The notes under the pieces: model-generated | What the model was told of the DNA's origin: nothing | The model's database searches: none | What the model saw: the letters and a program-made list of their open reading frames with translations, nothing else | Position numbers and translations under genes: made by a program | NCBI GenBank assembly: GCA_037893245.1 | Contig: JBAIAA010000518.1 | Location: 434,001-498,000, forward strand | Direction of reading: 5' to 3' | From: Crossaster papposus | Lineage: Eukaryota > Echinodermata > Asteroidea > Velatida > Solasteridae | DNA: 64,000 bases | Shown here: piece by piece, positions 11,179-62,838 of the stretch | Numbering within the stretch: position 1 is the first letter of the stretch | How the letters are laid out: each line of letters starts with the position of its first letter

Positions 11179-11399
11179 ATGCCGAAAAAGACCGTCCAGC
11201 AGTTGGATGCCTACATTAAGGCAACAGCCGTCGTGTACGACCACTCCAACACCAAACTCATCAACAGGAAGACTAAAGTCAAACCAAGCAAGAAACAGGC
11301 TTTCCTGTCTGTACTGCATTACAGGAAATCGACTTCTGGTGATCAATGTAGAAAACATTGGATTAAAAGACAATCGAGTTGCAAGCCTGAAAGTCGAAG
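11179..11399 (+). CDS. NLR-A exon 1: basic N-terminal segment
   Basis: Encodes 73 residues starting MPKKTVQQLDAY, rich in Lys/Arg, ending in phase 2 at GAAG|GTAAAA. I recognise no domain. Reading the same bases in the next frame gives a tempting alternative (MPTLRQQ...), but only the MPKK frame splices into the Ubl frame of exon 2. The start context caagATGc has A at -3. Relative to B and C a small deletion shortens the region near residue 58. Confidence 0.75.
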
Positions 11400-14300
11400 G
11401 TAAAACGAAAGCAGTTATTGTAACTAAATTTCGAAGAATTTGTTCAATCTTTGCTCTTTAATGAGACCCATGTTATTGTGGCAGTGGACGTTACTTTGAG
11501 AACATAATCAAAATGAACTCTTCTATATTGTAAAATAACGCGTTTCTAAAACTACACAGGATTGTCCCTCATTTTCACAGTGATACCAAAGACGTAAAGC
11601 AGACACTGCAGGTATTTGTCCGGACTCCTCTTTTACATACACCCAAGACACTTTGTTTCCAACTTCATCCCGAGACGACAGTCTCATTTCTAAAAGAAGA
11701 AATAGCCAAGAAGATCGGTGTCGAGGCACGATATCAGCAATTGTACACCAGGAGAGACTTCCAGGTAGGTATATAATTTATAAACCGGATACTTCGATCC
11801 ATTTGAAATATCAAAACCTAGATTTGTTCATCGTAGGAGTTGCAAATGTTGATGTAAAATGCAATATCTCACATGTTCATGTTTGATTAATAATCTGTCG
11901 GTGTTTATGGAACTCCCTCACACACAATAAAGCTCAATTAATCCCCCACCTAAAGAGTTAAACGAAGGTTTTACTTCTCCAAATGGTTCAATTACCGATG
12001 CACAACTAAAACCCAACACGTTTCGTAATTTACTCTCTAATATATTCACTTTGTCAGCTCTGTGACTTACTCACGCTCGAGGAGAATGGTGTCAGCAAGG
12101 ATGAAGTCATCTCACTCCGTCTATCAATAGATGACCAGAATGAAGATAATGTACCAACAGGTAAATGACAAAGTTTGGAAATAGAATATTCAAGTGAATA
12201 AACTACCTGCTTGTAATATTTTCGGTATTTATTTCAGCTGTTAAGAACAAGAGTCTCTTGTTGGTGTAGGTGTATAGTCCAGGCAAAATACATAATTTTG
12301 TTTTGTTGACCTCAAACAAATTGCAACAAATTGTTTTTCACCACAGTGCACTTCTAAAAGGTTCCTAGAATGACATACTAAAAATCCACAAAAATCCAAG
12401 TGGTGGAAATATGTCTAATTTGCATAAATCGTTAATCCCTGCCATGTAATATTTTTTATTCCCATATTTGGGTATATATTTTATTTTTATTTTTTGAAAA
12501 GTTTATTTTGGTGATTCTACTTACATATCATTACTTGAATAACATTTGCTAAAGCATATAAGTGACTGAATAATTATGAGAACACAGTAATTATCCAAAA
12601 TGACAACTTTGTGACCCTATAAATGTGCGCACATTACACTGTCTCCAGATATCATCATGTAGTCAGTATTGGTGAGCTTCAAATTCACCAAGTTGCTTAC
12701 TGGCACAGTTATCATATTAAAAACTTATGGAAAATCATATGGACAATGATAACATTGTGATATTTAGCCCAGCAAACAAAAACTTGGAAAAAATGATGTG
12801 TCCCTAAATTGGGCTAACAAGTAGGTGAAGGGTTGCCTAAGGTGAGAGACTTGAACAAGTTCAAGGAAACCCCCCAAATTTAAGATTGTTGTTGCTTACA
12901 ATAATCATATCTACGTTAAAATGTATTTTGGTGATTTCCTTGAACTTGTTCAAGTATTCCATGTTAGGCAACCCTTTAACTACTTTTTAGCCCAATTTAT
13001 AGACACACCATTTTCCCCATTTTTTGTTTTCTGGGCTAAATATCACAATGTTATTATTGTTCATATGATTTTTCATAAGGTTTTAATATGATAACTGTGC
13101 CAGTAAGCAACTTGGTGAATTTGAAGCTCACCAATACTGACTACATGATGATATCTGGAGACAGTGTAATGTGCGCACATTTATAGGGTCACAAAGTTGT
13201 CATTTTGGATAATTACTGTGTTCTCATAATTATTCAGTCACTTATATGCTTTAGCAAAAGTATTCAAGTAATGATATGTAAGTAGAATCACCAAAATAAA
13301 CTTTTCAAAAAATTAAAATAAAATATATACCCAAATATGGGAATAAAAAATATTACATGGCAGGGATTAACGATTTATGCAAATTAGACATATTTCCACC
13401 ACTTGGATTTTTGTGGATTTTTAGTATGTCATTCTAGGAACCTTTTAGAAGTGCACTGTGGTGAAAAACAATTTGTTGCAATTTGTTTGAGGTCAAAACT
13501 TATTTTTCCTGGACTAGTAGGAGATATCCTAATTGCTGCGTTGGTAACCTTTACAACACTGGACACTTTTAAGAATGTTTCGATGAATTCACACATTCTT
13601 TTGGCAGACAAAGTCAACCTTGATGAAAAGTACCTTAAGGACTTGTCCTCGAATATTGAATCATCGTGGAAGGAATTGGCCAAACACCTAGGATACGAAG
13701 AAGCAGAAATTGCAGACATCCAAACCACCAACAAAAGCAGCACTGAAGCGAGCCGTCACATGCTGCTCACTTGGTGGGAAAAGACGACAGATCGCGACGA
13801 AGCAGCTCAGAAGCTGAGACGAGCAATGGAGGCCGTCGGGTTGACTGAATTGGCTCAAGATGTACCAGGTGAGCTAGAAGTAAAGACTAAATGTGACCTG
13901 TTCCAACGAAACCCGGACCCGGTGTTCGACTCATGTACGATGGTGCTTGGGTTCGAACTCGACCAGGAACATGGTGTTTGTGCCCTTGACTACAACTACA
14001 ATTGCCTCTCTCCACCCAGGAGTATAAATGGGTACCTGTGAGGGTCGAGGCCGATTGAGCGCCTATAAACGGCTGCCGCGTGGTCCAGGGCCTGATGAAC
14101 GGGGTAATAATTGTAAAGCGCTTTGAGATCGTTGATACGATGTAAAGCGCTATATAAGCACGAACATTATTATTATTATTATTATTATAAAGTCGACTTT
14201 TTAGTTTTTCAGATTTTGCTTTTTTCAAATTCTCTAGGTTCTAAGCTTTAAAATGATGTATCATTTACATATGTACCCCCACCCTATCTTCCCTGGTGTC

Positions 14301-17300
14301 TGGATTTAGTGATAAAACCCTGACAACCTAATTATGAGATAAACAGCTTTGAAGTTCAGAAAAGCGTATTATTTCTATACACAAATGTTTCACAAAATTG
14401 ACAAAAAAACACACTTCTGGTAGACGGATTTTGTTCTAATTTGAGGAGATTGTAGATTAATAGTGAGTGACTTAGGAAAACCTAAAACCTCAAAATGGTA
14501 AAATCCATCCCGAAATGACTTCAGGAGTACATTGTGACAAAACATGTTGTGCGACTTTGTCCGGGTTTCGTTGGAACAGGTCACAAATTTAAAACAGACT
14601 CCGTAATCCCAAGAGTCATGATACAAAAGACCTCAATACTTATTTAACAACAACCAAACTTTACAAATACATAGTTTACATGTATTTTAAACCACAGGAA
14701 TTAAATTAGTTTTAAAAACTAATTTAAACAGTAACATGACATTTGTTGTTATTGCCTCAGTAACGAGCGAATCGAGAGACGAAGCAGCTGGACCCGAGCC
14801 AGAAAGGCGTCAAGATGAAGGAGGAAAAGTGGGGAGCAAACAAAACGAAAACAATCCACCGAAAAAGGACGTTTGTGATCAAGAAAAACCTGTTATCTGG
14901 TAAAATATGATTAAACGCTGCAATTTATAATGCACATTGTGTTTAAATAATTTAACTACATGTAATAGCCGAAAAGCTAATCAAATTTTGTTTTGTAGAT
15001 CATGCATAGACTGCCTTAACAAAACCTTAATAAAACGGTGTATACAGAATGTTTACAACTACAGTTGGTGGTCTTCATTCCTTTATATTACAAGAGCTCT
15101 AACATAAACACTCCACTCTGACAGTTTCAGATACGCGGCTCAGAAGCTGCAAGTCTTTGTCCGATGTCACCTCTCACACAAACCACAAACACTTTGTCTC
15201 CAACTGAATCCAAAGACATCCGTCTCGACCTTAAAGGAGATAATACACGAGAAACTTGAAGTCCAGCCTCAACAACAGCGACTGTACATCCGGAGGAACT
15301 TTCGTAACTTTGAGGTAAATTAAAAACGGCTCAATGCTATAAAGTGCCCATCAACCTTCCATTGAATTCATATAAATGCATTAAGTGACAACTTCTTCTG
15401 ATTCCGAATTGCACCAGTTGTGTACAAATCGTGCTGCTTCTGATGTCGGCGTAGTTGAAGAAACGATACTCAAATGGTTATTAGAAGGGAAATGAAAAAA
15501 CGGAAGACTACCTAATTATTTACCGCCACAATGTCGCTTTTCGAACTTTACATTTCAAAGAGAATGTGTTATATCGGAATCTTAAATATGTTTGTTGCAG
15601 CTGTGTAACTTGCTGACACTTCACGACTGTGGAATTCATCAGGATGAGAACGTCTCACTCCGTCTGTCTACTGATGGCCTACTGGGCGGTGGACTGAAAG
15701 GTAAAATGGGTATGCTTGTGGCAACATTTACCTTTCAAATCGGGCTTAATTGAACAAAAGTTGCAAATCTTGAACAACCCTTTGGATTTTATAAACATAA
15801 CCACATTTCAAAACATTCTACCTTGTTGGTGGTGAGATCTGATAGACGAGGAGCTGTCCCTTATTATCTTGCTTTTCAGTGGCACCCCTCATTGGTCATT
15901 TCCCAACCCGGTCCTCGACTGGGTCCTCATAAAACTGCATGTTCTGCTGGTCACCTGCATGCATTATGTTGGCCCGTGTGCAATGTTCACAATCGAAAAA
16001 CAGACGTTGAATAAAATAAAAAAAAATAAAAAACCACTGTTAATGAGATTTGGATTAGTCGGGGCCAATTTTAGACATAAAACAGTGAATTTATGAGCGC
16101 AAGCAATGTGTCTATCAAAGCTTGTTACCAACCCAATTGCTTCCTTGTTGCAATGCTGGCACTTTATGTGTGCTAACGTTAGCCTGTGCTATTTTTTGGC
16201 ATAACGCTTGTTTTTTAGATGTCTATCATGAATACTACTAATGCACACACAATTAACATTTCAAGTCGCGTAGCAAATTCTTCTTGTATTCTGCGAGAAA
16301 CAATATTTACAGAAAGTCTGTGCAAGGTCTATGCGTTAATGTACGTACACGTACATACACACAGTGCAGTGGGTGTACCCCTTGGGCAGTTTTTACACGC
16401 TTGGTGGCGCTGCATTCAAGATTGTCGCGGAATGTGAAACAACTTAATTGGAAAGCTCTTAACTGTAAATGCAATTCTGCAAAATTATCCATTCAATTTG
16501 AAAACCTATTTTCGTGTTTCCCCACCTCAGAGCATGTACTTGTATGAGCTTGCACCTGCTTGCACCCGTATTGGGACTGATATTTTAGTGTTACGTCTGG
16601 AGGAACTCCGATAAAAACGTTGCTTTTTATAACCAAAGTACATACAAGATGAGTAAAAAAGAAGTTCCCTCAACTTAACAAAAAAAATTAAAATATTTTA
16701 GAACTAGTGTGGTGCATGGAAAGTGCATCTAATTGTTAGTCTACGTTGAAAATAATGAAAGTTTTGAAATCACATTTTCAAATTACTTGTGATTGAATAT
16801 ATAATACCTGGTAAACGTAGCTTTCCTCGGAAGTGCATTATTATTGCACATAACTTTAGAACCAGAGGAGTAAATTCAGTAATTCAAAAATATGTATAGA
16901 GCCAAAAACATTGTCTATCTGTTTGTTTATTTCTCTATAACTGTGTGTACATTACTATTTTAGTCTGGATTTTTGTTTTTAATATTCGTCTAGACTAGAG
17001 GGAAGTTGTTTTAATGTATAATGTTTAAAGTTCACTATCTTTCAATCCGAAAAGAATACAACTAAATTGCATACCGGTACTGATAACTGTATTTCACGGA
17101 CTAATTACGCACTGATAACTGTTATACTGACTCATTACATACTGATAACTGTGTTATACTGACGGAATGATTTGTTTTGCAGACGAACACTCTGTTGATG
17201 ACCAGCTCTTGCGCGACTTGGCTTCCAAAACTGAATCGTCCTGGGAAAAAATGGCAGAGTTCCTGGGAATTTTAGAAGCAGAAATCAAGCAATTCCAAAC

Positions 17301-20300
17301 CACTTATGAAGACAACAAAGAAAGGAGCCTGCAGATGCTAAACTCTTGGTGGAGAAAGCAAACAAATCACGAGGAAGGATTTCAGAGATTGAGAGATGCG
17401 TTAAATTCAATCGGGCACGCTGAGCTGGCCTTAATGGTACTGTCAGAAGAGCAACAGCGGACGAAACAGGACGAACCTGAACCAGTGGTTCAAGAGGGAG
17501 AAACTAAAGGGAAAACTAAATCATCTGAGGACCAAACACCAATTAAGAAGGAACTTGCTCATCGAGACAAACAGCCAGAGGTTGAAGTTGGAAGTGCCAC
17601 AGAACAAAGCACGCAGAGAGGTAATACATCAAAGGACTCTTATTCTGGAACCCTTTTGCGCACAATTAAATCTCAAAATATACTCTTTTTCGGGTTCCTA
17701 CATTATCGACACACACGAAGGTTACACATTTAGTGAAAACGTCATTACATGTCTTGTCGGGCATCAACAAAATTCACCGTCAATTTGTGAAGTAATTATT
17801 AGTCCGTAGGTCTGCAATTTTGGGTACACTCGTTTAAATTTTCAGGGTAACACCTTAATACATTAACGAGTTCAAAACCACATAAGGCCATTTTTCTGAC
17901 CTTTTTTATGGGCAGAGCCATGACATTAAAAAGTGGGCGGCTTCACGGACAACAACTATATTCCAATAATGTTGCTTTTCTGTTCACAGCTAAGCTGCAA
18001 CCCAAGCCAAAGTTACACCTGAAAGCAAGACAACATGTACTAAACACAGCAATGCAATTATGAATTATTCATAGCCCAATTAGTATTTGTTTTTACCGAT
18101 GTGTGATCTAGATGCCACTGCACCACAAAATGAAGGCAAACAAGAGGCTAACGACAATGCCGCGTCACCTGCGACGGTTGGAGATCATGTGACATCTCAG
18201 CAAGGAGAGCAAGAAATCACAGAGATGATGACGGTGCTATCTGTGCAAGAGAACAGAAACTTAAATCCGGAAAAAGTGACGAAGACACCACTCGAGATGT
18301 CTCCATCTGGGGCGCATCTGTTAACAGACGTCAGCTCACAACACGAGTCGGCAGCTTCCGTTGAACAGTTGGGACTTCAGGAGGGGCAGATTGGCGATCA
18401 ACACAGACTCATGTCGTCAAAAAGGGAAATGCCAGAGAGGCTGCGGCAGGATGTCAAAGTTGAGGGGAGTAATAACTACACCGTTTTGGGAGATGTCATT
18501 ACCTATGTTCAGAATGTTGGTCACGTAAACGAATCAGGTAAATATCACAAAATAATTTCAAAGTGAATTTCAAACAAGCAATTGATAAAAGCAAAAGCGG
18601 TAACTTCGTTAAGAAGGCTGGACCTAAGATACAGAAAGTAATTCGTGTATGTATTTAAGGACAAAAAACGGATTTCTTCCAGTTCTAACAAAGGCTTAAT
18701 AATGTTGGGCTATTAATGGAAATGAAAGATAGCCGTCTTTTAAATGAGAAGCTCGATTACCAATTCGACTAAAAGTTTGGTTCTCTTACCTATCGTGATG
18801 CTTATGGTATTTGCTATTCCCTCAGAATACACAGCATTGTCCCATAGAAATGTCATAATTATATGCATAATTCTGAGCTTGCACTATACAGAAATACTTT
18901 GTATTCAAACGTGAATGCTTTTAGTTCTCATTGAGCCGGTATTTCTTCTGTTTGTGGAGAATTTGCTTGTTTGTTTTTCTGCAGCTATTGAAACAACAAA
19001 TTTGTTTTACTGTCGAGGATTCACGGTGTTCTCTTGTTTTCAGAGTTTCCAGAGTTGCCAATTGAAACGGAAGTCACAAGTGAGGGGACGACAAACGACT
19101 ATATGACTGAAATGTTCTGGCTAACCATGAAAGCTTTACATCAAGCGAAGGGAAAGGATTATATCCTCCATCAAGTCTCAGCTTTCGTAAATTCATGTGA
19201 TGGCGAGCTTGAGCATGTAAAGTATGGGTCTGTAACATTTGTTGTTCGTATCAAGAGTCGGGAGGGTCTGAACAAACTCTGGAGCATGTACACAACTGGA
19301 GACCTCGCCAAGAAGCTGACGGAGATTCTCATCACGGATGAACTGACAACAGAAGATAAGAGTAACTTGGCTATTCAGGCGACTATACTGGAAAGCGACT
19401 ACGAACAGGCTTGCAGATTGTTTGACAAGTTGGAAAAAGACCAACAGAAAGGTAGATTATTATATGAACTCTATTTCACTAAAAATTTAAGTCCTTTTCC
19501 AAGTTTTGCCAAACATTAACCCTATCCTTGTCGGTTAAATACTTTATTTACAGGTGAAGAGGACTCGGGACACATGGAAGAAGTACAACACACACAACCT
19601 GCAGAAAGCAGCACAGCAACGACTGTCGGCAGCTCTGACCCGACTGGGCACGCTGCTGATAGATGTGAAGAAAAACTGAAGACATTGTATATGACCACAG
19701 GTAGATATTCACAAATGGTTAAATGGGTGGACGGTGACACCAAGAAGGTGTTAATGCCGAAGCTAACGCTGGTTAAAGCTGACGATCAGACAGAGAACAG
19801 GGTAATATCATACGAAGATATGTTTATCGCGAAAACACGGGAGGGCGATTCAATTAATCTGGCCATTCTAAATGGGCCAGATGATGAACAAAAGTCCATT
19901 CTTTTGGAAAGCATTGCATATGATTGGGCAACTGGCTCCAATCCCACACTCAGTAACTTCAAACTTGTTACTGTCCCGCAAATGGAAGCCATTGAACAAG
20001 AGTCTGACCTTATTGACTCGATCTATGCTCAACTGTTGGGTCAAGACACAGATATTGACAGAGGCGACTTGGAGTCATTTATTGACACCAACCCTCAAAA
20101 AGTGCTTGTCCTATGGGATGGATTTGATAAGTCAATCAGCAACCTTGATGAGAACAAAGTTAATTTGGTTCTCAAATTCCTCAATCGGATCACAGCGAAG
20201 GGAATACGGGTACTTGTAACCACTCGTCACTCTCACAAATTCCTGAGCAGCAAAATGATCCAGGAACCTGTCACTATTGTGACAGCTTCAGAGGTCACTG

Positions 20301-23020
20301 AGGTCGAGATTGAAGCGCACTTGAAAGAAATTAACTCGGAGGAACCTGGTCTGGCTGAGAATCTCATTGACAGAATCAAATGCTCAGAGGTTCTCTCCGA
20401 CTGGGCCAAGAGCTTACAGCTGATTCCCTTATTGTGTTCATTGTCGAAACAATCGCCACTATCTGACACACAATCACGCCTATACAGTCAGGTCATGAAA
20501 TACATGTTTACACAACATACATATATGTCGCAAGGAGAAATATCCGACGTACTTATTGTCCTTGGTAAGTCTGCATTAAAGGGTCTGGTTTCCTCTCAGC
20601 AAAGGTTGGCATTTTGGGAAAAAGAGTTTGAGAAAGGGGCCCTCGAGAAGGCCTTAGGTGCAGGTCTCCTTACTCTTCGACGGGTGCCTATTGGTCAAAA
20701 ATCGGTCAGCGACTGCATACAATTTAGTCACAAATCAACACAAGCATACTGTGCTGCTAAATACTGCCAGAGTTTACCAGACAAAGAGTTTCAGAAGGTT
20801 CTTGATCAGATTGACAACCCGTGTGATTTTCAGTATTTGTTGCGCTTCTGCTGTGGCGACAATGAGCAATGCTGCAAACATATATTGCGTATGCTGCACA
20901 AGAAGTCTACCATAAGTAAGGAAGAGAGGGAATTGGCGTTACATTGTTACTTTGAAAGTCAGGCCACACGTGTGATATCAGAAGATGTCATCAAGTCATT
21001 CTTGAGTAGGTATTTGTGGATAGGTTTCACAAACCAGGACATGTTAAAGTCGCTCATGTGGTTGCTGCAGCACGTTGCCGAGCAGACAGAGCTCTCGGAA
21101 TACATCGATGAAATACGGCATGTTACCTTCAATAGATGTGATCTGTCAAGGTTGAGTGGAGTCGTAGCTTCGCGTTTGGCCACAATGAAAAACCTTTCTT
21201 CACTCCGCTTGTATGGATGCAAACTAACAGGTAATCAACTTGATCCCATTTTAGCATCACTTCAGAAGGCGGTTAACTTCACTGAACTTGATCTTTCTAA
21301 TATCGACATAGGCGGCACTGCAAACGTGTGGGCTGCCCAATTGCGATGTTTAAAAAACCTGAAGTCACTATGTCTTTGTAAATGTAACCTAAAAACGGAA
21401 GATATGGAAAGTATTACATCTTCTGCAAGTGAGATGACCAACTTAAAAAAACTTAAAATTTCAGACAACAAGGAGTTGGGTGGTTATGTGGGGAAATGGG
21501 CGGCTGGTTTGCAAACCATGGTTCACCTGAAATCAATCGATTTATCTTCATGTAACATAAATGCACAAGATATACCACATATTGCATCATCGGCTAGAGC
21601 GGTCCTAAACCTGACCAATCTTGACCTTTCAGGCAATGTGGGTTTGGGTGGGAAAGCAGAAACCTGGGCGGCTAGTTTGCAGACGATGATTCACCTGAAA
21701 CAACTCAGATTATCTTCATGTGGCGTCAATGAGGAAGATATACCACACATTGCATCATCAGTTGGTGCGATGCCAAACATGGCCAATCTTCACCTTACAA
21801 AAAATGTGGTCTTAGGTGGTAAAGCAGGAACGTGGGCGGATAGTTTGCAGACGATGACTCGCCTGAAATCACTCGATTTGTCTTCATGTAACATAAATGC
21901 ACAGGATGTACCACACGTTTCATCATCAGTTGGAGCGATGCCAAACTTGGCCGGTCTTGACCTTTCATGTAATAGCAAATTGGGTGGTAAAGCAAAAACG
22001 TGGGCGGCTAGTTTGCAGTCGATGATTCACATAAGGAAGCTTGATATGAATGAGTGTGACTTTCACAGTCGCGATGTAAAATACATCGCTAGATCAGTGA
22101 GTCGCATGGAGAATCTGGTGGATTGTGATTTTAGTAGTCACTCGGTGCGGTTCCGTGTATGGACATGGCGTGAAGGCATCAAACTAAGAATTGAGAGGGG
22201 TATTTTACAGTCATTCAGTAGGCCTAATAGGACAGATTTATTTAGTTCCATCCTGACCAGCGATAATATGGTGGATATTTTACAGTCATTCAGTAATCGG
22301 AGAGATTTATTTAGTTTGAACCTTGATAACATTGATGGCCTAAGTGGTTCCACAGATTCGTGGGCCCCACCCTTACAAAACCTAACGCACTTGGAGGAAA
22401 TCGAAATAACAAGATGCGCATTAAAAAGCACTGATATTGAACCCATTGCTGCAGCAGTAAGTCAAATGTCAAACATAAAATCCCTCAACCTCGAGGAAAA
22501 TAGTTCTTTGAGTGGCTCTGCAAAATCATGGGCTCCCAGTCTGAAACAGATAAAGCATGTAAGAAGCCTGGAATTGGGCGAATGTGCACTGACAGAGGAA
22601 GATAAGAAACACATATCTGAGGCATGGAAAGGTGGTGTTGGTTTCAGGCCTGATCCGTATTATGGGAGAAAAATGGATCGTCCTTTAATAAGACCAATGA
22701 GTGCGAGTGCGAGTGCGGGCATGTGGGTTGGTAAACACCGCCAATCTCGCACTCGCACGCATGCGAGTGCAAGTGCAAGTGAGAGTTTTGAATACGAGTC
22801 ACATGAATCGACCACTGGACCAATTCTTAAATCATCTGGATCGAGTCGGGCCAAAAACACCAGTAAGGTCGAGAGCCACGAGTCATCTAGTTCGAGACAG
22901 AGACTACACAAATCCGAAATCACGGCCGAGTCACTTGAATCGACTCCTGGGCCAATTCATAAGTCACCCCAAGTCACGAGCGAGGTCACAAGACGAGGCA
23001 CAAAGTGTCACATTATGTGA
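11179..23020 (+). CDS. NLR-A: Ubl-Death-Ubl-Death-TRADD-N-NACHT-LRR receptor with CaaX tail (11 exons)
   Basis: Exons: 11179-11399, 11581-11764, 12058-12160, 13608-13868, 14761-14899, 15125-15314, 15601-15700, 17183-17620, 18112-18537, 19044-19451, 19554-23020. They join to 5937 nt, an open frame of 1978 codons plus stop, with GT/AG at every junction. Approximate protein map: basic N-terminus 1-73; Ubl1 80-160; Death1 170-256; linker 257-302; Ubl2 306-386; Death2 400-485; Ser/Glu/Gln-rich linker 486-690; TRADD-N-like 700-823; NACHT 900-1200; LRRs 1350-1720; tail to 1978 ending CHIM. Known: Death and NACHT-LRR proteins are innate immune or cell-death receptors. Inferred: an intracellular sensor that recruits death-fold adaptors. 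ATG 11179 is the first in-frame ATG and homology with the paralogs starts just before it. Transcript evidence would be needed to exclude two shorter genes in this span, but phases and paralog conservation favour one. Confidence 0.8.
11581..11764 (+). CDS. NLR-A exon 2: ubiquitin-like domain 1, first part
   Basis: Phase 2 to 0. Encodes LQVFVRT, the hydrophobic beta strand 1 like MQIFVKT of ubiquitin, then a second strand, a helix (VSFLKEEIAKKIG) matching the ubiquitin helix, and YQQLYTRRDFQ at the place of ubiquitin QQRLIFAGKQ. Acceptor tttcacag|T is used here; an in-frame acceptor 21 nt upstream also exists in A and C but not in B. Confidence 0.8.
12058..12160 (+). CDS. NLR-A exon 3: ubiquitin-like domain 1, second part
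   Basis: Phase 0 to 1. Encodes LCDLLTLEENGVSKDEVISLRLS, which corresponds to ubiquitin TLSDYNIQKESTLHLVLRL. No diglycine follows, so conjugation in the manner of ubiquitin is not expected; a protein-interaction fold is more likely. Confidence 0.8.
12275..13516. mobile_element. 1.24-kb foldback element in NLR-A intron 3
   Basis: Two near-perfect inverted arms, 12275-12869 and 12935-13516, around a 65-bp loop. Ends TAGTCCAGG...CCTGGACTA suggest a TA target. NLR-B and NLR-C lack it at the same site, so it inserted after duplication or in this allele. No transposase frame. It lies just before the Death1 exon. Confidence 0.85.
13608..13868 (+). CDS. NLR-A exon 4: Death domain 1
   Basis: A symmetric phase 1-1 exon encoding 87 residues. 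Typical Death-domain features are seen: SSWKELAKHLGY (helix 2 W..LA..LG), the TWWEKT helix with paired tryptophans, and LRRAMEAVGLTELA at the end. Death domains bind other Death domains (MyD88, FADD, TRADD, RIPK1 type). Acceptor tttggcag|AC, donor CCAG|GTGAG. Confidence 0.88.
13893..14584. mobile_element. Inverted-repeat transposon in NLR-A intron 4, carrying a SINE
   Basis: Ends are exact 26-bp inverted repeats starting GTGACCTGTTCCAACGAAAC; target duplication AAAT at 13889-13892 and 14585-14588. NLR-B and C show the empty site. A SINE-like tail lies inside. Confidence 0.8.
13950..14188 (+). mobile_element. SINE with AAAGCGCT tail and (ATT)n
   Basis: Contains cctctctccacccagg, aaatgggtacctg, gtaaagcgctttgag and gtaaagcgctatataag, then (ATT)n at 14165-14188. 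This 3' end is common in SINEs of marine invertebrates and some fish. The 5' limit is uncertain. Confidence 0.6.
14761..14899 (+). CDS. NLR-A exon 5: charged linker
   Basis: Phase 1 to 2. Encodes about 46 polar residues (VTSESRDEAAGPEPERRQD...). No domain is seen. The end TG|GTAAAA requires the exon 6 acceptor at ctgacag|TTTCAG; the next AG downstream would create a stop codon, which fixes the junction. Confidence 0.7.
15125..15314 (+). CDS. NLR-A exon 6: ubiquitin-like domain 2, first part
   Basis: Phase 2 to 0. Encodes FRYAAQKLQVFVRC, then LCLQLNP and STLKEIIHEKLEVQPQQQR, closely matching ubiquitin strand 1, the helix and the PPDQQR loop. The same intron position and phase as exon 2 show that the Ubl-Death module was duplicated inside the gene. 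Confidence 0.82.
15601..15700 (+). CDS. NLR-A exon 7: ubiquitin-like domain 2, second part
   Basis: Phase 0 to 1. Encodes LCNLLTLHDCGIHQDE then VSLRLSTDGLLGGGLK. The last strand SLRLS corresponds to ubiquitin HLVLRL. A GGG run follows about seven residues later, which recalls but does not match the ubiquitin C-terminus. Confidence 0.8.
15701..17182 (+). other. NLR-A intron 7
   Basis: 1.48 kb between the Ubl2 and Death2 exons. No gene, clear repeat or RNA found. Its 3' part (ctttcaatccgaaaag) has a counterpart in the NLR-C intron that lacks Death2. Confidence 0.6.
17183..17620 (+). CDS. NLR-A exon 8: Death domain 2 and one linker repeat
   Basis: Symmetric 1-1 exon. The Death domain shows SSWEKMAEFLG, NSWWRKQT and LRDALNSIGHAELA. 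It is followed by a polar linker with a single copy of the 36-aa unit (VVQEGETKGKTK...HRDKQPEVEVG) that is amplified in NLR-B. Acceptor ttttgcag|AC. Confidence 0.85.
18112..18537 (+). CDS. NLR-A exon 9: low-complexity linker
   Basis: Symmetric 1-1 exon, 142 residues rich in Glu, Gln, Ser. No known domain. Its last 20 residues (VLGDVITYVQNVGHVNES) may be a diverged, shortened version of the RHIM-like end of exon 9 in B and C. Acceptor gatctag|AT. Confidence 0.65.
19044..19451 (+). CDS. NLR-A exon 10: TRADD-N-like domain
   Basis: Symmetric 1-1 exon, 136 residues. A beta strand (VKYGSVTFVVRIKS) leads to LNKLWSMYTTGDLAKKLTEI, a strand (LAIQATILES) and a helix (YEQACRLFDKL). The order and key positions resemble the TRADD N-terminal domain (strand QLIVQLRF, FLRAYREGALRAALQ, strand QLELRAG, final helix). 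TRADD-N binds TRAF proteins in TRADD and is known from NLR-like proteins. This is a motif-level judgement, not a search result. Confidence 0.6.
19554..23020 (+). CDS. NLR-A exon 11: NACHT, LRRs and Ser-rich CaaX tail
   Basis: Large last exon as in many NLRs. The Walker A position reads GPDDEQKS (19874-19897): lysine and serine are kept but the second glycine is Gln. Walker B reads LVLWDGFDKS (near 20105-20134), with Lys where NACHT has Glu. The arginine-finger-like strand is LVTTRHS, and the winged-helix/HD2 motif is FSHKSTQAYCAAKY. Four 56-aa double LRR units start at 21476, 21644, 21812 and 21980, exactly 168 nt apart; diverged LRRs flank them. Residues about 1850-1978 are Ser/Glu/His-rich and include an Ala-Ser run from a GAGTGC microsatellite near 22700. 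The protein ends GTKCHIM. Confidence 0.9.
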
Positions 23021-26618: not shown

Positions 26619-26851
26619 ATGCCACAAAAGACCGTTCAGCAGTTGGATGCCTACATTAAGGCAACAGCCGTCGTGTACGACCACTCCAACACCAAACTCA
26701 TCAACAGGAAGACTAAAGTCAAACCAAGGAAGAAACAGGCTTTCCTGTCTGTACTGCATTACAGGAAAACGAATTCTGATCAATGTACACAAAGGAGACC
26801 ATCAAAACGATGGATTCGAAGACAATCGAGTTGCAAGCCTGAAAGTGGAAG
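26619..26851 (+). CDS. NLR-B exon 1: basic N-terminal segment
   Basis: 77 codons plus 2 nt, starting MPQKTVQQLDAY. Homology to A and C begins only at the ccaag just before the ATG, so the leader is different. Donor GAAG|GTAAAA. Confidence 0.75.
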
Positions 26852-29800
26852 GTAAAACAAATCAGTTATTGTAACTCAATTTTGAAGAATATGTTAAATC
26901 TTTTACTCTTTCATGAGACCCATATTAATGTGGCTAAGAAGGTCAGCGTAACGGGGTCGTGTTCATTTTTATTATTTTGTGTGAGAAAGTGCCTTGAAAA
27001 TTGGCGCTGTTTAATCTTTTTTAAACTCGTTTTTGAAAAGTTACTCTGAAGATGATTTCGGAGACCATTATTTCAGAGAGAAAAGGTGGATCTTTCCAAT
27101 GACATATTTTTTGGAAATGATCACCGAGTGCGAAATAGTGAAATCTGTTGTTTATTCCCGGGAAGTTTGTGATCGGAGTCGCCCAAGGAGTGGCCATCTT
27201 GCTTTTAGCACGTGACATTAACTTGTGTTTGGTCGATAAAAATATAAACTACATCACCGTAAAGACAACGAAATTATCGTTCGACTCGTACCAAGAGTAG
27301 GAAAGTTCGTTTGTGCTTTGCTTCAAATTTTGGATATTTTTTTTAGACACAAAAAACAAGTACAGATTTTCATGATTTTCGGGCCACTAAATCGTTAAAA
27401 AAAATAACATGAGGAGTTAATGGAAAACTAAGTAAGGAGTACTTTGTGAAAGGGTGGAATTTTAGGAGTTTTTATAACAAGTTTGTTTGTTATGTTTTTC
27501 GTGACGCTTTTGACGTCGGGAGGTTTTGTTGTCGGGTGCCATCGGCAAGATGATTAAAATATGGCGGCGGTGCAGTGTCACAATGATGGGTAGCTGCAAG
27601 TGTATTCCTTTCACCATGCAGTTGTATGCATGAATGAAGCAATAATACAGCTATTACTTTTCGGTGGTTTGCTTTATTGGGGAAATTTACATCATTTATT
27701 AATGCAATTCTTCCAAAAAAATACTACAACATATTTCAACAGTTTCCCAATGTGGCTGTCAGTGTCGCTATGGTTGTAGAAACACAATGAATTATTAAGC
27801 CATCATCATTCATGATCATCGGCATCAATCTTTTTTTTCTTTTTTTTGAAGCATGTAATTATTTTGTACTATATGACAGCACATTAATTTTTCTTCTTGA
27901 TAATATTAAACACTGTTACAACAGATAAACATGGGCCATTATGAGTATAATCCTTGTTTGATCCTTGTTTGATCTCTTAATTACAATGTCTATTTAAATA
28001 CAAATGTTTTTATGTGTTGCTATTGCCTAAAACACGTTTTGAACGTAGTTTTTCACTGCACATCATTATATAAATTAAGTCCTATCTTTCATTGCACTTG
28101 CACGTCAAAGTTTTTTATTATACCTTGTCTGAAAATACATCTCTGCATGAAGCCCCCCCCCCCCCCCCTCTGTTATAAGTCCTTTGTCCTGTCTGTCCTT
28201 TTGTCTGTCCATAGGTTAGGGCACAAAAGCATTATTGCTTCACCCAAACCTAAATGTTGTCCTTAAGTTGTGTAATAAGTATTTATTATAATGTTATACT
28301 ACTATTTAACCTGTAATGCTGTAATTCAAATTATTGTAAACACATTGTGTATTTCCTTGACCAAGGACAGCGTTGAAATAAATGTACTACTGCTACTAAC
28401 ATGTACACATTACCACATGTTAAAGAACTACCATAAAGGGGACCTAACAATACTAATTTATGGAAATATGATTTCATCTAAATAAACTTTAAAATGTTTT
28501 CCAGACCTTTCAATTTTTTTTAGCCAGGCTGCTTTGGAGGTGTTATTTTTATTGTAACACCCCGCACCATACCTGCGGAATAATTACGACTGGATATCCC
28601 CCCTTAATGGACTATAACTTTACCAGAATCAAAATTAACTCTCCTATTGTAGAATAATGCGTTTCAAAAACTACACATCATTTTCCCTCATTTTCACAGT
28701 GATACCAAAGACGTAAAGCAGACACTGCAGGTATTTGTCAGGACTCTTCCCTTACATACACCTAAGAAACTTTGCTTCCAACTTCATCCCGAGACGACAG
28801 TCTCATTCCTAAAAGAAGAAATAGACAAGAAGATCGGTGTCGAGGCACGATATCAGCAATTGTACACCAAGAGAGACTTCCAGGTAGGTATATAATTTAT
28901 AAACCGGATACTTCGATCCATTTGAAATATCAAAACCTAGATTTGTTCATCATGGGAGTTACAAATGTTGATGTAAAATTCAATATCTCACATGTTCATG
29001 TTTGGTTAATATTCTGTTGGTGTTTTTGAAACTCCCGCACACACAAGAAAGCTCAATTAATCCCCCACCTAAAGGGTTAAACGAATTTACTTCTCTAGAT
29101 GTTTTAATTAACGATGCACAACTAAAACTCAACACATTTCTTAATTTACTCTTTAACATTATTCACTTTGTCAGCTCTGTGACTTACTCACGCTCGAGGA
29201 GAATGGTGTCAGCAAGGATGAAGTCATCTCACTCCGTCTATCATCAGATGACCAGAATAAAGATAATGTACCAACAGGTAAATGACAACGTTTGGAAATA
29301 GAATATTCAAGTGAATAAACTACCTGCTTGTAATATTTTCAGACTTTATTTCAGCTATTAAGAACAAGAGTCTCTTGTTGGTGTAGGTGTAGGACTTATC
29401 TTAATTGCTGCGTTGGTAACCTATACAACACTGGACACTTTTAAAAATGTTTCACTGAAGTCACACATTCTTTTGGCAGACAAAGTCAACCTTGATGAAA
29501 AGTACCTGAAGGACTTGTCCTCGAATATTGAATCATCGTGGAGGGAATTGGCCAAACACCTAGGATACGAAGAAGCCGAAATTGCAGACATCCAAACCAC
29601 CATCGAAGGCAGCACTGAAGCGAGCTGTCACATGCTGCTCACTTGGTGGGAAAAGACGACAGATCGCGACGAAGCAGCTCAGAAGCTGAGACGAGCATTA
29701 GAGGCCATCGGGTTGACCGAATTGGCTCAAGATGTACCAGGTGAGCTAGAAGTGAAGACTAAATTTAAAACAGACCCCGTAATCCCAAGAGTCATGATAC

Positions 29801-32800
29801 AAAAGACTATACTTATTTAACAACAACCAAACTTTACAAATACATAGTTTACATGTATTTTAAACCACAGGAATGAAATTAGTTTAAAAAAATAATTTAA
29901 ACAGTAACATGACATTTGTTGTTATTGCCTCAGTAACGAGCGAATCGAGAGACGAAGCAGCTGGACCCGAGCCAGAAAGGCGTCAAGATGCAGGAGAAAA
30001 AGAGAAGAGCAAACAAAACGAAAATAATTCACTGAAAAAGGACGTTTGTGATCAAGAAAAACCTGTTATCTGGTAAAATATGATTAAACGCTGCTATTTA
30101 TAATGCACATTGTGTTTGAATAATTTAACTACAAGTAATAGCCGAAAAGCTAATCAAATTTTGTTTTGTAGATCATGCATAGACTGCCTTAACAAAACCT
30201 TAATAAAACGGTGTATACAGAATGTTTACAACTACAGTTGGTGGTCTTCATTCCTTTATATTACAAGAGCTCTAACATAAACACTCCACTCTGACAGTTT
30301 CAGACACGTGGCCCAGAAGCTGCAAGTCTTCGTCCGATGTCACCTCTCACACAAACCACAAACACTTTGTCTCCAACTGAATCCAGAGACATCTGTCTCG
30401 ACCTTAAAGGAGATAATACACGAGAAACTTGAAGTGCAGCCTCAACAACAGCGACTGTACATCCGGAGGAACTTTCGTAACTTTGAGGTAAAAATGGCTC
30501 CTCATATTTTATGTATAACTATAGGTACCAATTGACATGTCCAATTAAAGGCAATCCCAATTGTGCGTTTTAGTGACAATATATTCTGTTTAAAACCTAC
30601 ATGGGTGTGCTCAAATATGGCTGCTTCTGATGTCGGTGTAATGGTGTTTTAAACACTTAAGTTCAGGAAATTATCCATGGTTAAGTCAATCTCGCTATAC
30701 AAATAAAGACCACAAAACAAATGACCTTATCCTTTTTATTTTGCCAGCTACTCAACTTGCTGACACTTCACGACTGTGGAATTCATCAGGATGAGAACAT
30801 CTCACTCCGTCTGTCTACTGATGGCCTACTGGGCGGTGGACCAAAAGGTGAATGCTAACAAGGAACATCGGATAATATTTCAAGATGGGACTAACCCTGC
30901 AATTTTAGCCTGACAAATTAACTTTGAATCCGCATCCGCCTCTCTAAATTGATTGTGTCAGCGTTATATTTTGTTTGTTAGCATTGTGAATACTAGCAGT
31001 GGTACACACACGTATATTGATACAGAGAGTAGATTAATGTGCGTACCACCTTCTTCTAAATATCTGCACAAACAATTTAATCAGAAGGCATTTGATAACA
31101 TTTTGTGTTTTTTTCTATAACAAAACACTCATGTCTAACATGCATTCATTATTTGCCCCTCAATCTGAAAAGGCAGTACCCATTACATTATGCTGACGGA
31201 AAAGCTGTATTTGTTTTCTTTCTAGACAAACACCCTGTTGATGATCAATTATTTCGGGACTTGGCTTTGAAAACTGAATCATACTGGGAAAACCTGGCCA
31301 AATCTTTGGGAAATGAAGCAGAAATCAAACGGATCCAAACCACCTCCCAGGACAACAAAGAAAGGAGCCTGCAGATGCTAAACTTTTGGTGGAATAAGCA
31401 AACAAATCAAGAGGAAGGATTTCAGAGATTGAGAGATGCATTAAATGCAGTCGGGCACGCTGAACTGGCCTTAACGGTGTCGTCATATGAGCAACAGTGG
31501 AAAGAACAGAAGGAACATGATCGTCGACACCAACCTCAACCATCAGTACAAGTCGCAGGACCTAAAGAACAGAGAGGGCAGAAAGGGGCTACGCCATCTG
31601 ATGAACAAAGACCGAGACGGGTGGATGGTGATCGAGAAAAATCAAATCCAAGTGTACATGTGGAAGCTTCTCAAGAACAGAGACAGCAGAAAGGGACTAC
31701 ATCAACTGAGAACCAGAGATTAGAAGAGAGAGAAGTTAGTTCTCGAGACAAACGTAAGACTATGGTACAATTGGGAGGGGCTAAGAAACGAAGCAAGCAA
31801 AAAGGAACTACCCTATCTGATGACCAGAGACCGAGACAGTTGGTTGGTGATCGAGACAGACCTGCATCGGTACAAGTGGGAGGTACTCAAGCACAGAAAG
31901 GGGCTACGTCATCCAAGGAAAAGAGATCGACAAAGGAGGAAGTTAGTCACCGACATACATCTCACCCAGAGGTTCAAGAAGAAAGAGCTAAAGAACAGAA
32001 AAAGCAGAAAGATGTTACATCACTAGAGTATCAGGCGTCTAGACAGGAGAATGTCGCTCATCAAAACAAACCTCAAACAGAGGTACAAGAGGGAGAGACT
32101 AAAGAACAGAGCGAGCAGAAGGTGATTATAGCATCAGAGGGAAACAGACCAGCGCAAGAAGAAGTTGCCCATCAAGAAAAACGTACAACAGAGGAACGAG
32201 TGGTTAAAGAACGGAGCAAACAAATAGCTGCAACATCATCTGATGGCCAGATACCGGAACAGAAGGAAGTTACTCATGAAGCCATCCGCCAACTATCGGT
32301 ACAAGTTGGAAGGCCTAAAGAAAAGAGCACACAGAAAGGGACTGAGTCATCTGAGAAACGGATACCGAAACCAGAGAACGTCGGGCATCCAGATAATCCT
32401 GAATTACCCATACAAATGGAAGTGACCGAGACACAAAACAGACCAGGTAAATAATAACACAGACTCCACAATTTCGTTCTTTCTTCCGCTTATATTTAAT
32501 TCAAATTATGTAAGAAGGGGAATGTTTGCGAGCTAGTTTAGGGGGTTGACCAATGAGGACTGCACACTCATGCAATAACGTTCTTTCCCAATTTCACCTA
32601 AAACATTTGAAATGCTCGCGAAATTTGGGTGCACTGACTGTTTTGGATCATCAGTGAACAATAAGTTAATCTAATAACCAAACTTGTCGACGAATCGTCG
32701 TCTGTCGTCTTATATTTTATATAAAAATTGTAGTTTTCGCCAACCGTAAATTTGCGACAGTGACAGTACTGTTTCAACACATATTTGTCTCAAAATATAT

Positions 32801-35800
32801 ATATTTAAAACAAATCTTGTTTAACAATAAGGCTAAATCCTTTTTTAATTCATTTTTGAATACAATTGTTGTTTTAAAGACCCATTACCGGGAAAATTAA
32901 TTTCGAAATTTGGTGTCCAATCTCATGAATATTCAGTTCACCGAGAGAGTTAAGCTAAGGTCACAAATCAGAGCAGCGACCGACCGATCAGTAGCCTGCT
33001 CGGTCGCTGCTGGAATTTAGGCATCGCCCAGCGATTTTTGGAGAAGTCGAGCAGGCTGTAGAGCCCCAGCGATGCCTGGGCGGTGACCTGTCGATTTCCC
33101 GTCGGTCGCCGGTCGATTTTAGGTCAAAACTGGGCGAAATCGGAGCTTTTTCGCGCGGTGTCCCGGCAGTGACCGACCGGTGACCCTCCGATTGCCGGGC
33201 GGTCTTCCACCAGCCACCGGCTGATTTTAAAGAAATTGCCCGGCGGCCGGCCGGTAATCGACGGGGCATCGGGGGGTGTCTCGTAGGCGTACTGGCGGCG
33301 GCCCACCAGGCTCTGCCGAAAATTTCTCACGGGCAACCTGGGATGTGACTTCCCCGGACTGGTCATCATCAAAACCGCTTTTGCTTTGTCATTGCCATTG
33401 TCATTGTAATTGTCAGCCATTATCGGCTAGACGTCGCGGTGAATGGAGCTGGCGCTGCTGGACGCCGACCGATTTTGAACTCGCCTCCCAGTGACCGATT
33501 GATCTCCCAGCGGCGACCGGGCGGCGACCGCTCGGCAGCCTCTGACCTAGCGGCTTCGATTTTTGACTTAAATCGCTCAGCGGCGAACGCTCGATTAGGT
33601 CGGGCAGCGACCGCCCAGGCACCGAGCGTATTTTGGGCAGCGAGTGAAAGTGAGCAGGCGCCGCCCAAATTTTAACTCCGCGCTAAAACTTCAGCGGCGA
33701 CCGAGCGATGCCCTAAAAACGAGCGGTGTCTGGGCGGCCGCCGCTCGGTGGCCGGGCAGAATTGGTTAAAAACTCGCCGCTCGGCCGCCTAGCAGGTTAC
33801 TTTTGGGTAATGTAACCATAGCTTTACGCATACATAGAAAATAAAGAAAAGCACTTTTGCGAAGGCTGCGAACTGACTGATACTGACATGAATATTCATC
33901 AATGGTGGACAGCCAGGTTTTGTGATCTGTTTATTGAAATAGACATAACTTGGAAATGGATTATGCAAATTTCGTTAAATTAAAAGTCAAAAAGATCCCC
34001 GTTTAAAATATTATAGAATATTGGAGTGAGCCAAATATTTGTATAATATTGTTCAAATAAGCCATTTGCGTGTTAAATTTAAATAACATCTGGTATACTG
34101 ACTTGCTTTAAATGCTTGGTACGTTTTAACTCTGAATTCTCCAGACTAAAGACACTATTTCTATATCACATGAATCGGGACAAGCTCTTGCATATGCACG
34201 TAGTTACGTAAGAGACGTTCAGCACCAATACGTTGTTTACAATAGGTGAGAATAGCACAAAGACACCAGACCATTTTGTGATATAGCAACAGTGTCTTTA
34301 GTCTGGAGAATTCAAAGTTAAAACGTACCAAGGATTTGAAGCAATTCAGTGTACCAGATGTTACTTAAATTTAACACACAAATGGCTTATTCGGTCACTT
34401 TCTGTATTTTTTTGTTTTCGCGCATTTCCATTTTTTTTTTTTTTTTTACCACAGCGTTTGGGGCGATTTTCTTTATTCTTGGCCAGGAACGACAAAAGTA
34501 TAAGGAAACCGTGCTCGAAAGCCTGCCGACCCTAACTTGAAAAAGTGACACACAAAATAAAATTAATTGTATTTAAAAATAAATGTATAAATAAATATAT
34601 GATGAATTTAGCAGGAAGAAATCATAAATATAATTATTTACATATTCATATTAACAGAAATGGTATTACGGAGCAATCATTTATAAACAGGACATTAAAC
34701 AAGGAATACTCTCCCACAATTACATGTAATGTCTAAGTCCTTTACTTTTTATCCCAAAAGGCAGCAAACACACTGACGAACTGAACGAGTTTGTATCTTC
34801 CGAGGAGCAGAGACAAAAGCAGCAAGGAGCAGAGGGAACGGATCCAAACATTCAAACGAAGGAGACGATGCAATCATCAGAAGGTCCTGGATTAAAGACA
34901 GTGGTCAGAAATGTGGCATCACAAGACCAACATCTAATGCCGGGTCCGAGCTCAGTTCAAGACATCGTACCTGGTGGACTCCAACTGGAAACATCGCCCC
35001 TGTCACCTGCTGTACCTGCGCAACCCGTTTCAGTGGGTTCCGTGAGTACAAGTGGCGATTACTGTCCTGTCTTAGTTGGCACGTTTAACCAACCAACTTT
35101 CATCGTAAACTTTCAAAGTTTGAAAGTGACAGAAAATAGTTCAGGTAAGACATGTTCCATAACTCTCCAACTTTATATAATTCGTTTTTTTGTGACGGTT
35201 AGCATCACACACACTAAAAACTGCTGCACCAGATTGATACTGAATCTGAATCTATATTTGCTCTACACTTTCAGGGTAAAAAATGACACTTTTCTCGGAT
35301 AAGTGTAGAAATTTCTTTAGAACTGTTGTCCAACTTAGTTTTACCTTTCAAAGCTTGAATCTGACATAAAGCAGTCCAGGTATACACATATTCCAATAAC
35401 CACTCTGTCTCCCACCTGCATCCTGTACTCTCGTATTTTATTGTCTCGCCTTTATAGGATTCCCCAGTTATTTCAACCGAACAACCATAGGCTCAATTCA
35501 AAAATTTCAAATTCCAAAAGTTACCATGAAATCAGTTACATAGTTGCAATCACGGCAGCTGCCCTGACACTGTTCCCGACGTCTATAAATTACTCCGTTT
35601 CGTATGAAGTAGGATCAAGAAAACATAAACCCTTTGTCAGCATGTACAGTGTATATGAGCACAAGGCAGGTTTTGTTGAATATATTTGTCATAAAACACC
35701 AGTCCCAAATCCATAAAAAAAAAAAATTACAACAACCCAAAGCAATTGTTATAATTATCAACAGACAGACAATGATATTTGGGTTTTTAAAGTTTTTTTA

Positions 35801-50776: not shown

Positions 50777-51012
50777 ATGCCGAAAAAGACCGTCCAGCAG
50801 TTAGATGCCTACGTTAAGGCAACAGTCGTCGTGTACGACCACTCCAACACCAAACTCATCAACAGGAAGACTAAAGTCAAACCAAGCAAGAAACAGGCTT
50901 TCCTGTCTGTACTGCATTACAGGAAAACGACTTATGGTGATCAATGTACAGAAAGGAGACCATCAAAACGATGGATTCGAAGACAATCGAGTTGCATGCC
51001 TGAAAGTCGGAG
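50777..51012 (+). CDS. NLR-C exon 1: basic N-terminal segment
   Basis: 78 codons plus 2 nt, starting MPKKTVQQLDAYVKAT, Lys/Arg-rich. The upstream 200 bp match the NLR-A promoter region. Confidence 0.75.
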
Positions 51013-60000: not shown

Positions 60001-60152
60001 CATCTAGTTGGAGACAGAGACTACACAAATCCGAAATCACGGCCGAGTCACTTGAATCGACTTCTGATCCAATTCATAAGTCACCTGGTTCAAGTCACCC
60101 CCAAGTCACGAGCGAGGTCACAAGACGAGGCACAAAGTGTCACATTATGTGA
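50777..60152 (+). CDS. NLR-C: paralog lacking the second Death exon, CaaX tail present (10 exons)
   Basis: Exons: 50777-51012, 51203-51383, 51678-51780, 51978-52238, 52429-52567, 52766-52955, 53324-53423, 54239-55096, 56144-56554, 56656-60152. The joined length is 5976 nt, 1991 residues. It has Ubl1, Death1, linker, Ubl2, a linker with three 64-aa repeats, a RHIM-like motif, a TRADD-N-like domain, NACHT, four 56-aa LRR units and a tail ending CHIM. No exon matching Death2 is seen between 53424 and 54238; exon 7 joins exon 9 in phase 1 without breaking frame. The NACHT P-loop has lost its lysine. The 5' flank resembles that of NLR-A and the 3' flank that of NLR-B. Confidence 0.8.
51203..51383 (+). 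CDS. NLR-C exon 2: ubiquitin-like domain 1, first part
   Basis: 181 nt, one codon (Phe) shorter than in A and B at its end (KRDQ rather than RDFQ), otherwise the same Ubl strand-helix pattern. Confidence 0.8.
51678..51780 (+). CDS. NLR-C exon 3: ubiquitin-like domain 1, second part
   Basis: 103 nt, phase 0-1, encoding LCDLLTLEENGVSKDE and SLRLSSDDQNED. Confidence 0.8.
51978..52238 (+). CDS. NLR-C exon 4: Death domain 1
   Basis: 261 nt, phase 1-1. Motifs SSWRELAKHLGY, AWWKKT, LRRALEAIGLTELA. This is the only Death domain of NLR-C. Confidence 0.88.
52429..52567 (+). CDS. NLR-C exon 5: charged linker
   Basis: 139 nt, phase 1-2, VTNESRDEAAGSEPERRQD followed by a Glu/Lys-rich run. Confidence 0.7.
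52766..52955 (+). CDS. NLR-C exon 6: ubiquitin-like domain 2, first part
   Basis: 190 nt, phase 2-0, FRYVAQKLQVFVRC and STLKEIIHEKLEVQPQQQR. Confidence 0.82.
53324..53423 (+). CDS. NLR-C exon 7: ubiquitin-like domain 2, second part
   Basis: 100 nt, phase 0-1, LCNLLTLHDCGIHQDE and SLRLSTDGLLGGGLK. Splices to exon 9 because the Death2 exon is missing. Confidence 0.8.
54239..55096 (+). CDS. NLR-C exon 9: three 64-aa repeats and RHIM-like motif
   Basis: 858 nt, phase 1-1. Repeat units begin at 54277, 54469 and 54661, exactly 192 nt apart; each opens SSEEQRQKQQ and holds IQTK-x-TMQSS and HQKPG. The exon ends with the RHIM-like VLVGTFNQPTF (55021-55053), identical to that in NLR-B. Acceptor ctcaaaag|GC. 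Confidence 0.78.
56144..56554 (+). CDS. NLR-C exon 10: TRADD-N-like domain
   Basis: 411 nt, phase 1-1. GSVIFVVRITSREGLNKLW, MYTTGDLAKKLTEI, LAIQATILES, YEQACRFFEEL. Confidence 0.62.
56656..60152 (+). CDS. NLR-C exon 11: NACHT, LRRs and CaaX tail
   Basis: The Walker A position reads GQDAEQTS (56976-56999): both the second glycine and the catalytic lysine are changed. Walker B is WDGFDKS. Four 56-aa LRR units start at 58560, 58728, 58896 and 59064. The ILQSFS/RRDLFS block is present once. The tail is Ser/Glu-rich with a GAGAGT microsatellite coding SESESES near 59730 and ends GTKCHIM. Confidence 0.9.
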
Positions 60153-62564: not shown

Positions 62565-62634
62565 ACAAGATAGCTCAGTTGGTAGAGCGCCGGTCCGGTA
62601 TTCCAGAGGTCGCAGGTTCAAGTCCCGCCTTGCC
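62565..62634 (+). tRNA. tRNA-like sequence, copy 2 (degenerate)
   Basis: Duplicate of the 43241 copy with a normal-length D loop (AGCTCAGTTGGTAGAGC) and B-box GGTTCAAGTCC, but the first acceptor bases no longer pair. Likely non-functional. Confidence 0.35.
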
Positions 62635-62838
62635 GATTTCTTTGTTCACTTTGAGATTGATGCAAACTTACCTAATCAGTTTTGCTTGTGGTTTATTCGT
62701 GTATTTTAATTCTCACGAGTTAAATTTACTAAATTATTTTCTTAAAACAATTTTCTAATACACGCCTTACCATTTTCCACTGAACTCACTATAGTGGAAA
62801 AGCAATAATACATTATATTTTCTTCTTCTTCTTTTTAA

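Follow-up and report, generated by a model that had tools for sequence, protein, structure and literature searches.

Receptors of the NLR family pair a NACHT domain with leucine-rich repeats (LRR), and other NACHT combinations are described in echinoderms, among them Ig-NACHT (PMC13133943, in whose accessible text the word ubiquitin is absent). Echinoderm expansions of the TRADD-N domain, with 18-23 copies, were reported by Kaur, Iyer, Burroughs and Aravind (2021; PMC8195603), and according to the text of that paper, which also defines a Gly-Ser motif for the domain, the same TRADD-N clade is fused across animals to Death-like domains, LRRs and polyubiquitin. The genome of the sea star Crossaster papposus carries three tandem genes, here termed A, B, and C, within a 64,000-nucleotide window (the whole stretch of DNA analysed; contig JBAIAA010000518.1, positions 434,001 to 498,000), and these belong to a form of NLR-like receptor that is real, new, expanded in number and under constraint. 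They have the NACHT and LRR of the NLR family, the LRR evolving faster than the NACHT, and the Gly-Ser motif defined in the text of PMC8195603; they differ from that family in the lost Walker A motif and Walker B acid of the NACHT and in a head that bears ubiquitin-like domains (Ubl) and is followed by TRADD-N. Neither the Ubl-Death-Ubl-Death-TRADD-N-NACHT-LRR chain nor a tie between P-loop-less NACHT and TRADD-N was found in the text of PMC8195603, figures and source tables (which may list some such proteins) aside, and the full architecture of A, B, and C was not found in the accessible portion of the open-licence literature, in which a search on degenerate P-loops turned up mainly papers on plants.

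Gene A (11179-23020) resolves into 11 exons separated by introns that are all GT-AG and compatible in phase, encoding 1978 residues free of internal stops in the order cap-Ubl1-Death1-Ubl2-Death2-TRADD-N-NACHT-LRR by predicted splicing (Table 1), as the first-pass annotation of this DNA had claimed. The junction between exons 5 and 6 was worked out by hand: the AG nearest exon 6 leads to an in-frame stop, the AG 6 bases upstream leaves the frame open, and the sequence at this site is unchanged in genes B and C. Pfam recognizes two stretches each of Death (71.3 bits, cut-off 22.6) and ubiquitin (47.5 bits, cut-off 25.4) in the head, and confirms the NACHT and LRR calls in exon 11, with NACHT (PF05729) at 35.8 bits (cut-off 26.7) and C-terminal LRR_4, LRR_1, LRR_6 and other LRR families above cut-off; the cap encoded by exon 1 has no Pfam match. 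Gene B (26619-40563; 11 exons, 2109 residues) and gene C (50777-60152; 10 exons, 1991 residues) also splice in frame, and the matching order proposed for both holds for gene B, whereas gene C is without the Death2 exon: a tblastn search of the gap with Death2 returned a chance match only (E 6.5), while the same queries recover the exon of gene B at 1e-41 and 1e-59. Intron 3 of gene A contains a long foldback element (12306-13496) with arms of 236 nucleotides (100% complementary) and 251 nucleotides (96%), unlike its short counterpart in genes B and C.

The closest matches to the three genes are from sea stars (Patiria, Acanthaster, and Asterias), with remoter ones from a sea cucumber, a brittle star, a coral and a fish; P numbers below denote retrieved homologous proteins, L numbers loci in the C. 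papposus genome itself, and C numbers contigs of its 1.02-Gb assembly, the window lying on C518. The search for the same order in relatives, for which lancelets and echinoderms had been named, finds these modules again in proteins predicted for other sea stars, and a lancelet origin was rejected, the close matches being sea stars. Members of the family have so far turned up in sea stars alone; their head (cap-Ubl1-Death1-Ubl2-Death2) is constant and their NACHT-LRR tail variable. Isoform X2 of Patiria miniata LOC119725958 (1710 residues) is a predicted protein that unites cap, Ubl, Death, TRADD-N, NACHT, and LRR in one chain, with a single Ubl and a single Death domain; this independent annotation supports one predicted transcript for head and NACHT-LRR, and an artefact arising from separate mRNAs is made unlikely by the phase consistency in three copies and by P0001. 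The anatomy is more than chance, given the three paralogues, the same modules in other sea stars and the constraint on Ubl and NACHT domains described below.

Each of the three NACHT domains departs from the Walker A pattern GxxxxGK[S/T], with GPDDEQKS in A and B and GQDAEQTS in C, and in all of them Walker B reads DGFDK, the acid that should follow DGxD being lost; judged by these motifs, A, B, and C are not classed as active STAND NTPases. In an alignment of 56 NACHT sequences (53 retrieved plus A, B, and C; P0051, P0054 and P0059 reread by eye) the P-loop is degenerate in six, namely A, B, C, P0001 (Patiria), P0002 and P0003 (both Acanthaster), and GK[S/T] is kept in 48, with P0051 and P0054 not covering the site. 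The altered sequence GPDDEQKS is itself found in Patiria as well. TRADD-N is present in 6/6 of the degenerate proteins, which form one side of a branch (100/100) in a NACHT tree of 27 sequences that excludes P0026, a protein missing part of the domain; in this branch TRADD-N and the loss of ATP motifs go together. The bacterial iSTAND and iSTAND2 proteins covered in the text of PMC8195603 likewise have eroded nucleotide motifs in a conserved immune protein, and differ in being bacterial and in belonging to other gene systems.

A genome search with the NACHT of gene A, in which 102 of 373 candidates were scored, returned 36 matches with identities of 78-100%, all on C518 and C632 except for one on C7, followed by a gap, the other 66 being at or below 46%. 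Thirty of the 36, a dead class that includes A, B, and C, were read, the remaining six all being partial matches. The P-loop is covered in 28 of these 30 loci and degenerate in 28/28, and in 28/30 the 1.5 kb upstream of the NACHT include a TRADD-N exon, a count that rests on the loci read. In a sample of 18 from the distant class (L001-L008, L039, L040, L065-L072) the P-loop is intact in 18/18, and TRADD-N was not found in the stretches covered, which span the whole Death2-NACHT gap for L039, L040 and L065 and about 0.5-1.5 kb of flank otherwise. Because L010 and L011, on C518 and C632, have identical NACHTs, both haplotypes may be represented in the assembly, and the counts may be doubled.

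Purifying selection on the Ubl and NACHT domains is evident among A, B, and C from ratios of nonsynonymous to synonymous substitution (dN/dS) that lie at 0.12-0.40 in the Ubls and at 0.35-0.55 in NACHT, with 0.40-0.57 for Death1 and values nearer 1 for exon 1 (0.60-0.89) and HD2-LRR (0.67-0.91); two short linkers exceed 1 in 6/6 comparisons, dS being zero in two of these. Across the 28 dead NACHTs (378 pairs) the pooled dN/dS is 0.49; the segment bounded by P-loop and Walker B has 0.27 and the part beyond Walker B 0.60. A stop is present there in two of the 28. The domain is thus retained without its switch.

Sequence and fold tests support the Ubl, Death, and TRADD-N calls first made for gene A. 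The Ubls belong to the ubiquitin sequence family and have a beta-grasp fold; an immune protein with two Ubls is also seen in the tandem Ubl of OASL (7sbi), a protein not known to carry a NACHT. TRADD-N shows the expected alpha-beta fold, and the Gly-Ser motif in its beta2-beta3 turn (G61 and S62) is invariant in 11 sequences, P0023 having Lys-Ser in its place. The Pfam family TRADD-like_N matches seven of eight members at E<=1 (best E 0.0042), gene A scoring 13.1 bits, below the cut-off of 23.7; Foldseek alone yielded no significant TRADD-N match, and a PDB sequence search with the domain yielded one match only, at chance level. The first half of the gene A TRADD-N agrees with P0012 and P0013 (Patiria) at 28/62 and 29/62 positions versus 18 and 19/61 with B and C, unlike other exons of gene A, which are close to B and C (window 18112-19451), a pattern that points to module exchange. 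Elsewhere, TRADD-N is N-terminal in P0018 (Acanthaster, named SAMD9-like), and in P0015 (Patiria) Death and TRADD-N domains are joined to a reverse-transcriptase domain (PF00078).

The heads of dead and intact genes are closely similar. The P-loop-intact loci L039, which lies on C632 inside the array, and L040, which on C518 is separated from the dead copy L036 by about 38 kb and from the main array by about 440 kb, are 91-98% identical to gene A in Ubl2, 90-93% in Death1 and 70% in Death2, and 42% identical in NACHT. L040 is also 92.3% alike to gene B over 3904 columns spanning exons 2-8 and their introns, and L065 (C164) joins a Ubl2 98% identical to that of gene A to an intact NACHT that is 40% identical. 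At least 56 Ubl2-type exons at 90% identity or more were counted among 150 scored of 199 candidates. Heads are passed between dead and intact genes, or exchange keeps them alike. Exon-only homogenization by mRNA-templated conversion was suggested by Ubl2 exons that are 90-100% alike against about 43-57% for intron 6 (21/24 comparisons with A), and was rejected, since the genes also share the introns that lie from exon 2 to exon 6 (exon 2 to exon 8 for gene B versus L040); ordinary DNA recombination is therefore enough to explain the alike heads. Ubl exons about 57-62% like Ubl2 were also seen on C146, C594 and C745, contigs not among the NACHT matches listed, and are perhaps another Ubl gene branch.

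The reading we prefer, whose chances we judge to be about even, is that A, B, and C represent a P-loop-less branch of an intracellular NLR-like family, acting as non-ATPase co-receptors that work with switch-competent sisters. The LRR part would sense, the NACHT would provide a non-hydrolysing assembly surface, and the protein, as sensor or co-receptor, would assemble with P-loop-intact sisters via the common Ubl-Death head; TRADD-N may dock a TRAF-type (MATH-domain) ubiquitin ligase, with signalling by recruitment and not by ATP-driven opening of the protein itself. The heads common to dead and intact genes suggest a single interface used by both classes, which would act jointly. In plant paired NLRs, with their P-loop-dispensable sensors, and in NAIP-NLRC4, sensors are distinct from switch-competent partners; sea stars likewise have two classes, with a putative pairing and with heads that are not the same domains.

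Several observations weigh against the co-receptor reading. As the six degenerate NACHTs form one branch, motif loss and TRADD-N gain amount to one event and not a repeated correlation, and the link between them gives no replicated evidence for cause; P0012-P0014, from a different NACHT clade, combine TRADD-N with an intact P-loop. The lysine is kept in most P-loop-less copies, which leaves room for weak nucleotide binding. At L017 a NACHT fragment and a Death-like stretch stand between the locus and the nearest TRADD-N, which is about 2.5 kb upstream and belongs to the locus only doubtfully, and at L035, where the NACHT is cut short, no TRADD-N was found in about 7 kb. Constraint on TRADD-N is weaker (dN/dS 0.58-0.69 among A, B, and C), and 2/28 dead copies have a stop in the NACHT. 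Common heads, moreover, can arise by ordinary array recombination and are no proof of co-assembly.

The single-chain signalling platform of the first-pass annotation retains its basis in that all domains lie in one predicted chain, and in its self-sufficient form each protein would oligomerize through Death, LRR and scaffold contacts of its own, recruiting partners without a sister receptor. P0023, with the order Ubl-Death-Ubl-Death-Death-TRADD-N-Death-Death and no NACHT match, demonstrates that head and TRADD-N can exist without NACHT; however, with the ATP motifs lost there is no obvious self-contained route from off to on, and the NACHT is nevertheless under selection, making this alternative unlikely. 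Somewhat more doubtful is a role as decoys or dampers, in which P-loop-less copies occupy the common head or the ligand and limit signalling by intact sisters. Such a role would fit the lost catalytic motifs and the close similarity of dead and intact heads, but TRADD-N in most copies and the expansion to about 30 loci suggest an added output rather than inhibition alone.

A further alternative concerns the end of the last Ubl, which reads GLxGG, as in ubiquitin, in 31/31 proteins, at a position internal to the chain, which would call for cleavage before any conjugation, and is absent from 16/17 upstream Ubls. Tail columns make up four of the 15 most conserved among 96 columns in 20 non-redundant last Ubls; an entropy ranking whose rows were picked by the GLxGG pattern was not used as evidence. 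In the model of P0028 the tail is predicted to sit in a joint (residues 302-311, predicted local distance difference test score below 50) between two confidently folded domains, the cap and first Ubl being modelled at low confidence. In ubiquitin-type precursors such as FAU/FUBI a Ubl, GG and then more protein follow one another, as they do in the predicted chains of A, B, and C. A protease might cut after GLxGG and free a GG-ended head or Ubl for conjugation or as a signal, but the Ile44 surface of ubiquitin is not retained, the tail exceeds that of ubiquitin by as many as two residues in a by-eye reading of the alignments, and a Gly-rich hinge could be kept for flexibility, leaving such a modifier precursor a slim prospect. 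An equally long shot joins this cut to the co-receptor reading, as a two-class sea-star network with one Ubl-Death head in which P-loop-less TRADD-N sensors would signal via switch-competent sisters, and cleavage at GLxGG on activation would free a GG-ended Ubl-Death modifier. That the dead P-loops are simply pseudogenes of a decaying array, as the two NACHT stops, the fragments among the matches and the early stop of gene B might suggest, is highly improbable given the low dN/dS of the NACHT and of its P-loop to Walker B segment, the same GPDDEQKS in Patiria and the long open frames in many copies.

The C-terminal CaaX motif first proposed for these receptors is present as CHIM at the ends of A and C only. 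Gene B ends at an in-frame TAA (40561-40563) before any CaaX, the downstream sequence still resembling the tail of gene A, and the cysteine is found in 0/33 homologue C-termini compared, so CaaX was rejected as a family feature. A linker motif of about 33-34 residues, VSVDxxxVxGxNxPxFLGPVxxPTxxFxQNV, precedes TRADD-N or NACHT in B (35027-35128) and C (54979-55080), and recurs in P0001-P0004 (twice in P0004), P0007, P0012, P0013, P0015, P0025, P0028, P0030 and P0033; the gene B linker that holds it matches no Pfam family, and it might be a beta-rich assembly motif. Downstream of gene C a tRNA-Thr (anticodon GGT) is predicted at 62563-62636, and seven flanking open reading frames of the window have no Pfam family.

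Table 1. Exons and motifs of genes A, B, and C, in window coordinates.
Feature	Position	Strand	Basis or remark
Gene A exon 1: conserved 46-residue N-terminal cap (MPKKTVQQLDAYIKATAVVYDHSNTKLI...) and linker	11179..11399	+	Cap recurs in many homologues
Gene A exon 2: Ubl1, first part	11581..11764	+	Pfam ubiquitin
Gene A exon 3: Ubl1 end, without GG tail	12058..12160	+	Pfam ubiquitin, alignment
Gene A exon 4: Death1, phase 1-1 exon	13608..13868	+	Pfam Death
Gene A exon 5: linker	14761..14899	+	dN/dS >1 on few sites
Gene A exon 6: Ubl2, first part	15125..15314	+	Pfam ubiquitin, genome matches
Gene A exon 7: Ubl2 end; GLLGGG tail 15676-15693	15601..15700	+	Column conservation
Gene A exon 8: Death2 and linker	17183..17620	+	Pfam Death
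Gene A exon 9: linker	18112..18537	+	Spliced model
Gene A exon 10: TRADD-N; Gly-Ser motif YGSV 19223-19234	19044..19451	+	Sequence and fold tests
Gene A exon 11: NACHT, LRR, low-complexity tail, CHIM 23006-23017, stop	19554..23020	+	Pfam
Gene A degenerate Walker A, GPDDEQKS	19874..19897	+	Alignment
Gene A Walker B, altered to DGFDK without the acid	20117..20131	+	Alignment
Gene B exons 1-3: cap and Ubl1	26619..29277 (26619-26851, 28700-28883, 29175-29277)	+	
Gene B exon 4: Death1	29480..29740	+	
Gene B exons 5-7: linker and Ubl2, GLLGGG 30823-30840	29934..30847 (29934-30072, 30298-30487, 30748-30847)	+	
Gene B exon 8: Death2 and long linker	31226..32446	+	Pfam Death, 34.2 bits
Gene B exon 9: linker, conserved 34-residue motif 35027-35128	34761..35144	+	
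Gene B exon 10: TRADD-N	36234..36644	+	
Gene B exon 11: NACHT-LRR; Walker A GPDDEQKS 37780-37803; TAA end before any CaaX	37460..40563	+	
Gene C exons 1-3: cap and Ubl1	50777..51780 (50777-51012, 51203-51383, 51678-51780)	+	
Gene C exon 4: Death1	51978..52238	+	
Gene C exons 5-7: linker and Ubl2, GLLGGG 53399-53416	52429..53423 (52429-52567, 52766-52955, 53324-53423)	+	
Gene C exon 8: linker, motif 54979-55080; no Death2 exon before	54239..55096	+	
Gene C exon 9: TRADD-N	56144..56554	+	
Gene C exon 10: NACHT-LRR; Walker A GQDAEQTS 56976-56999 (Lys also lost); CHIM 60138-60149	56656..60152	+	

In this family a Ubl whose tail is of the ubiquitin type forms part of an immune-receptor-like protein, a feature that is directly testable, and as a conserved and expanded animal NLR-like branch without ATP-binding motifs the family offers a test of whether ATP is needed for signalling by every NLR.

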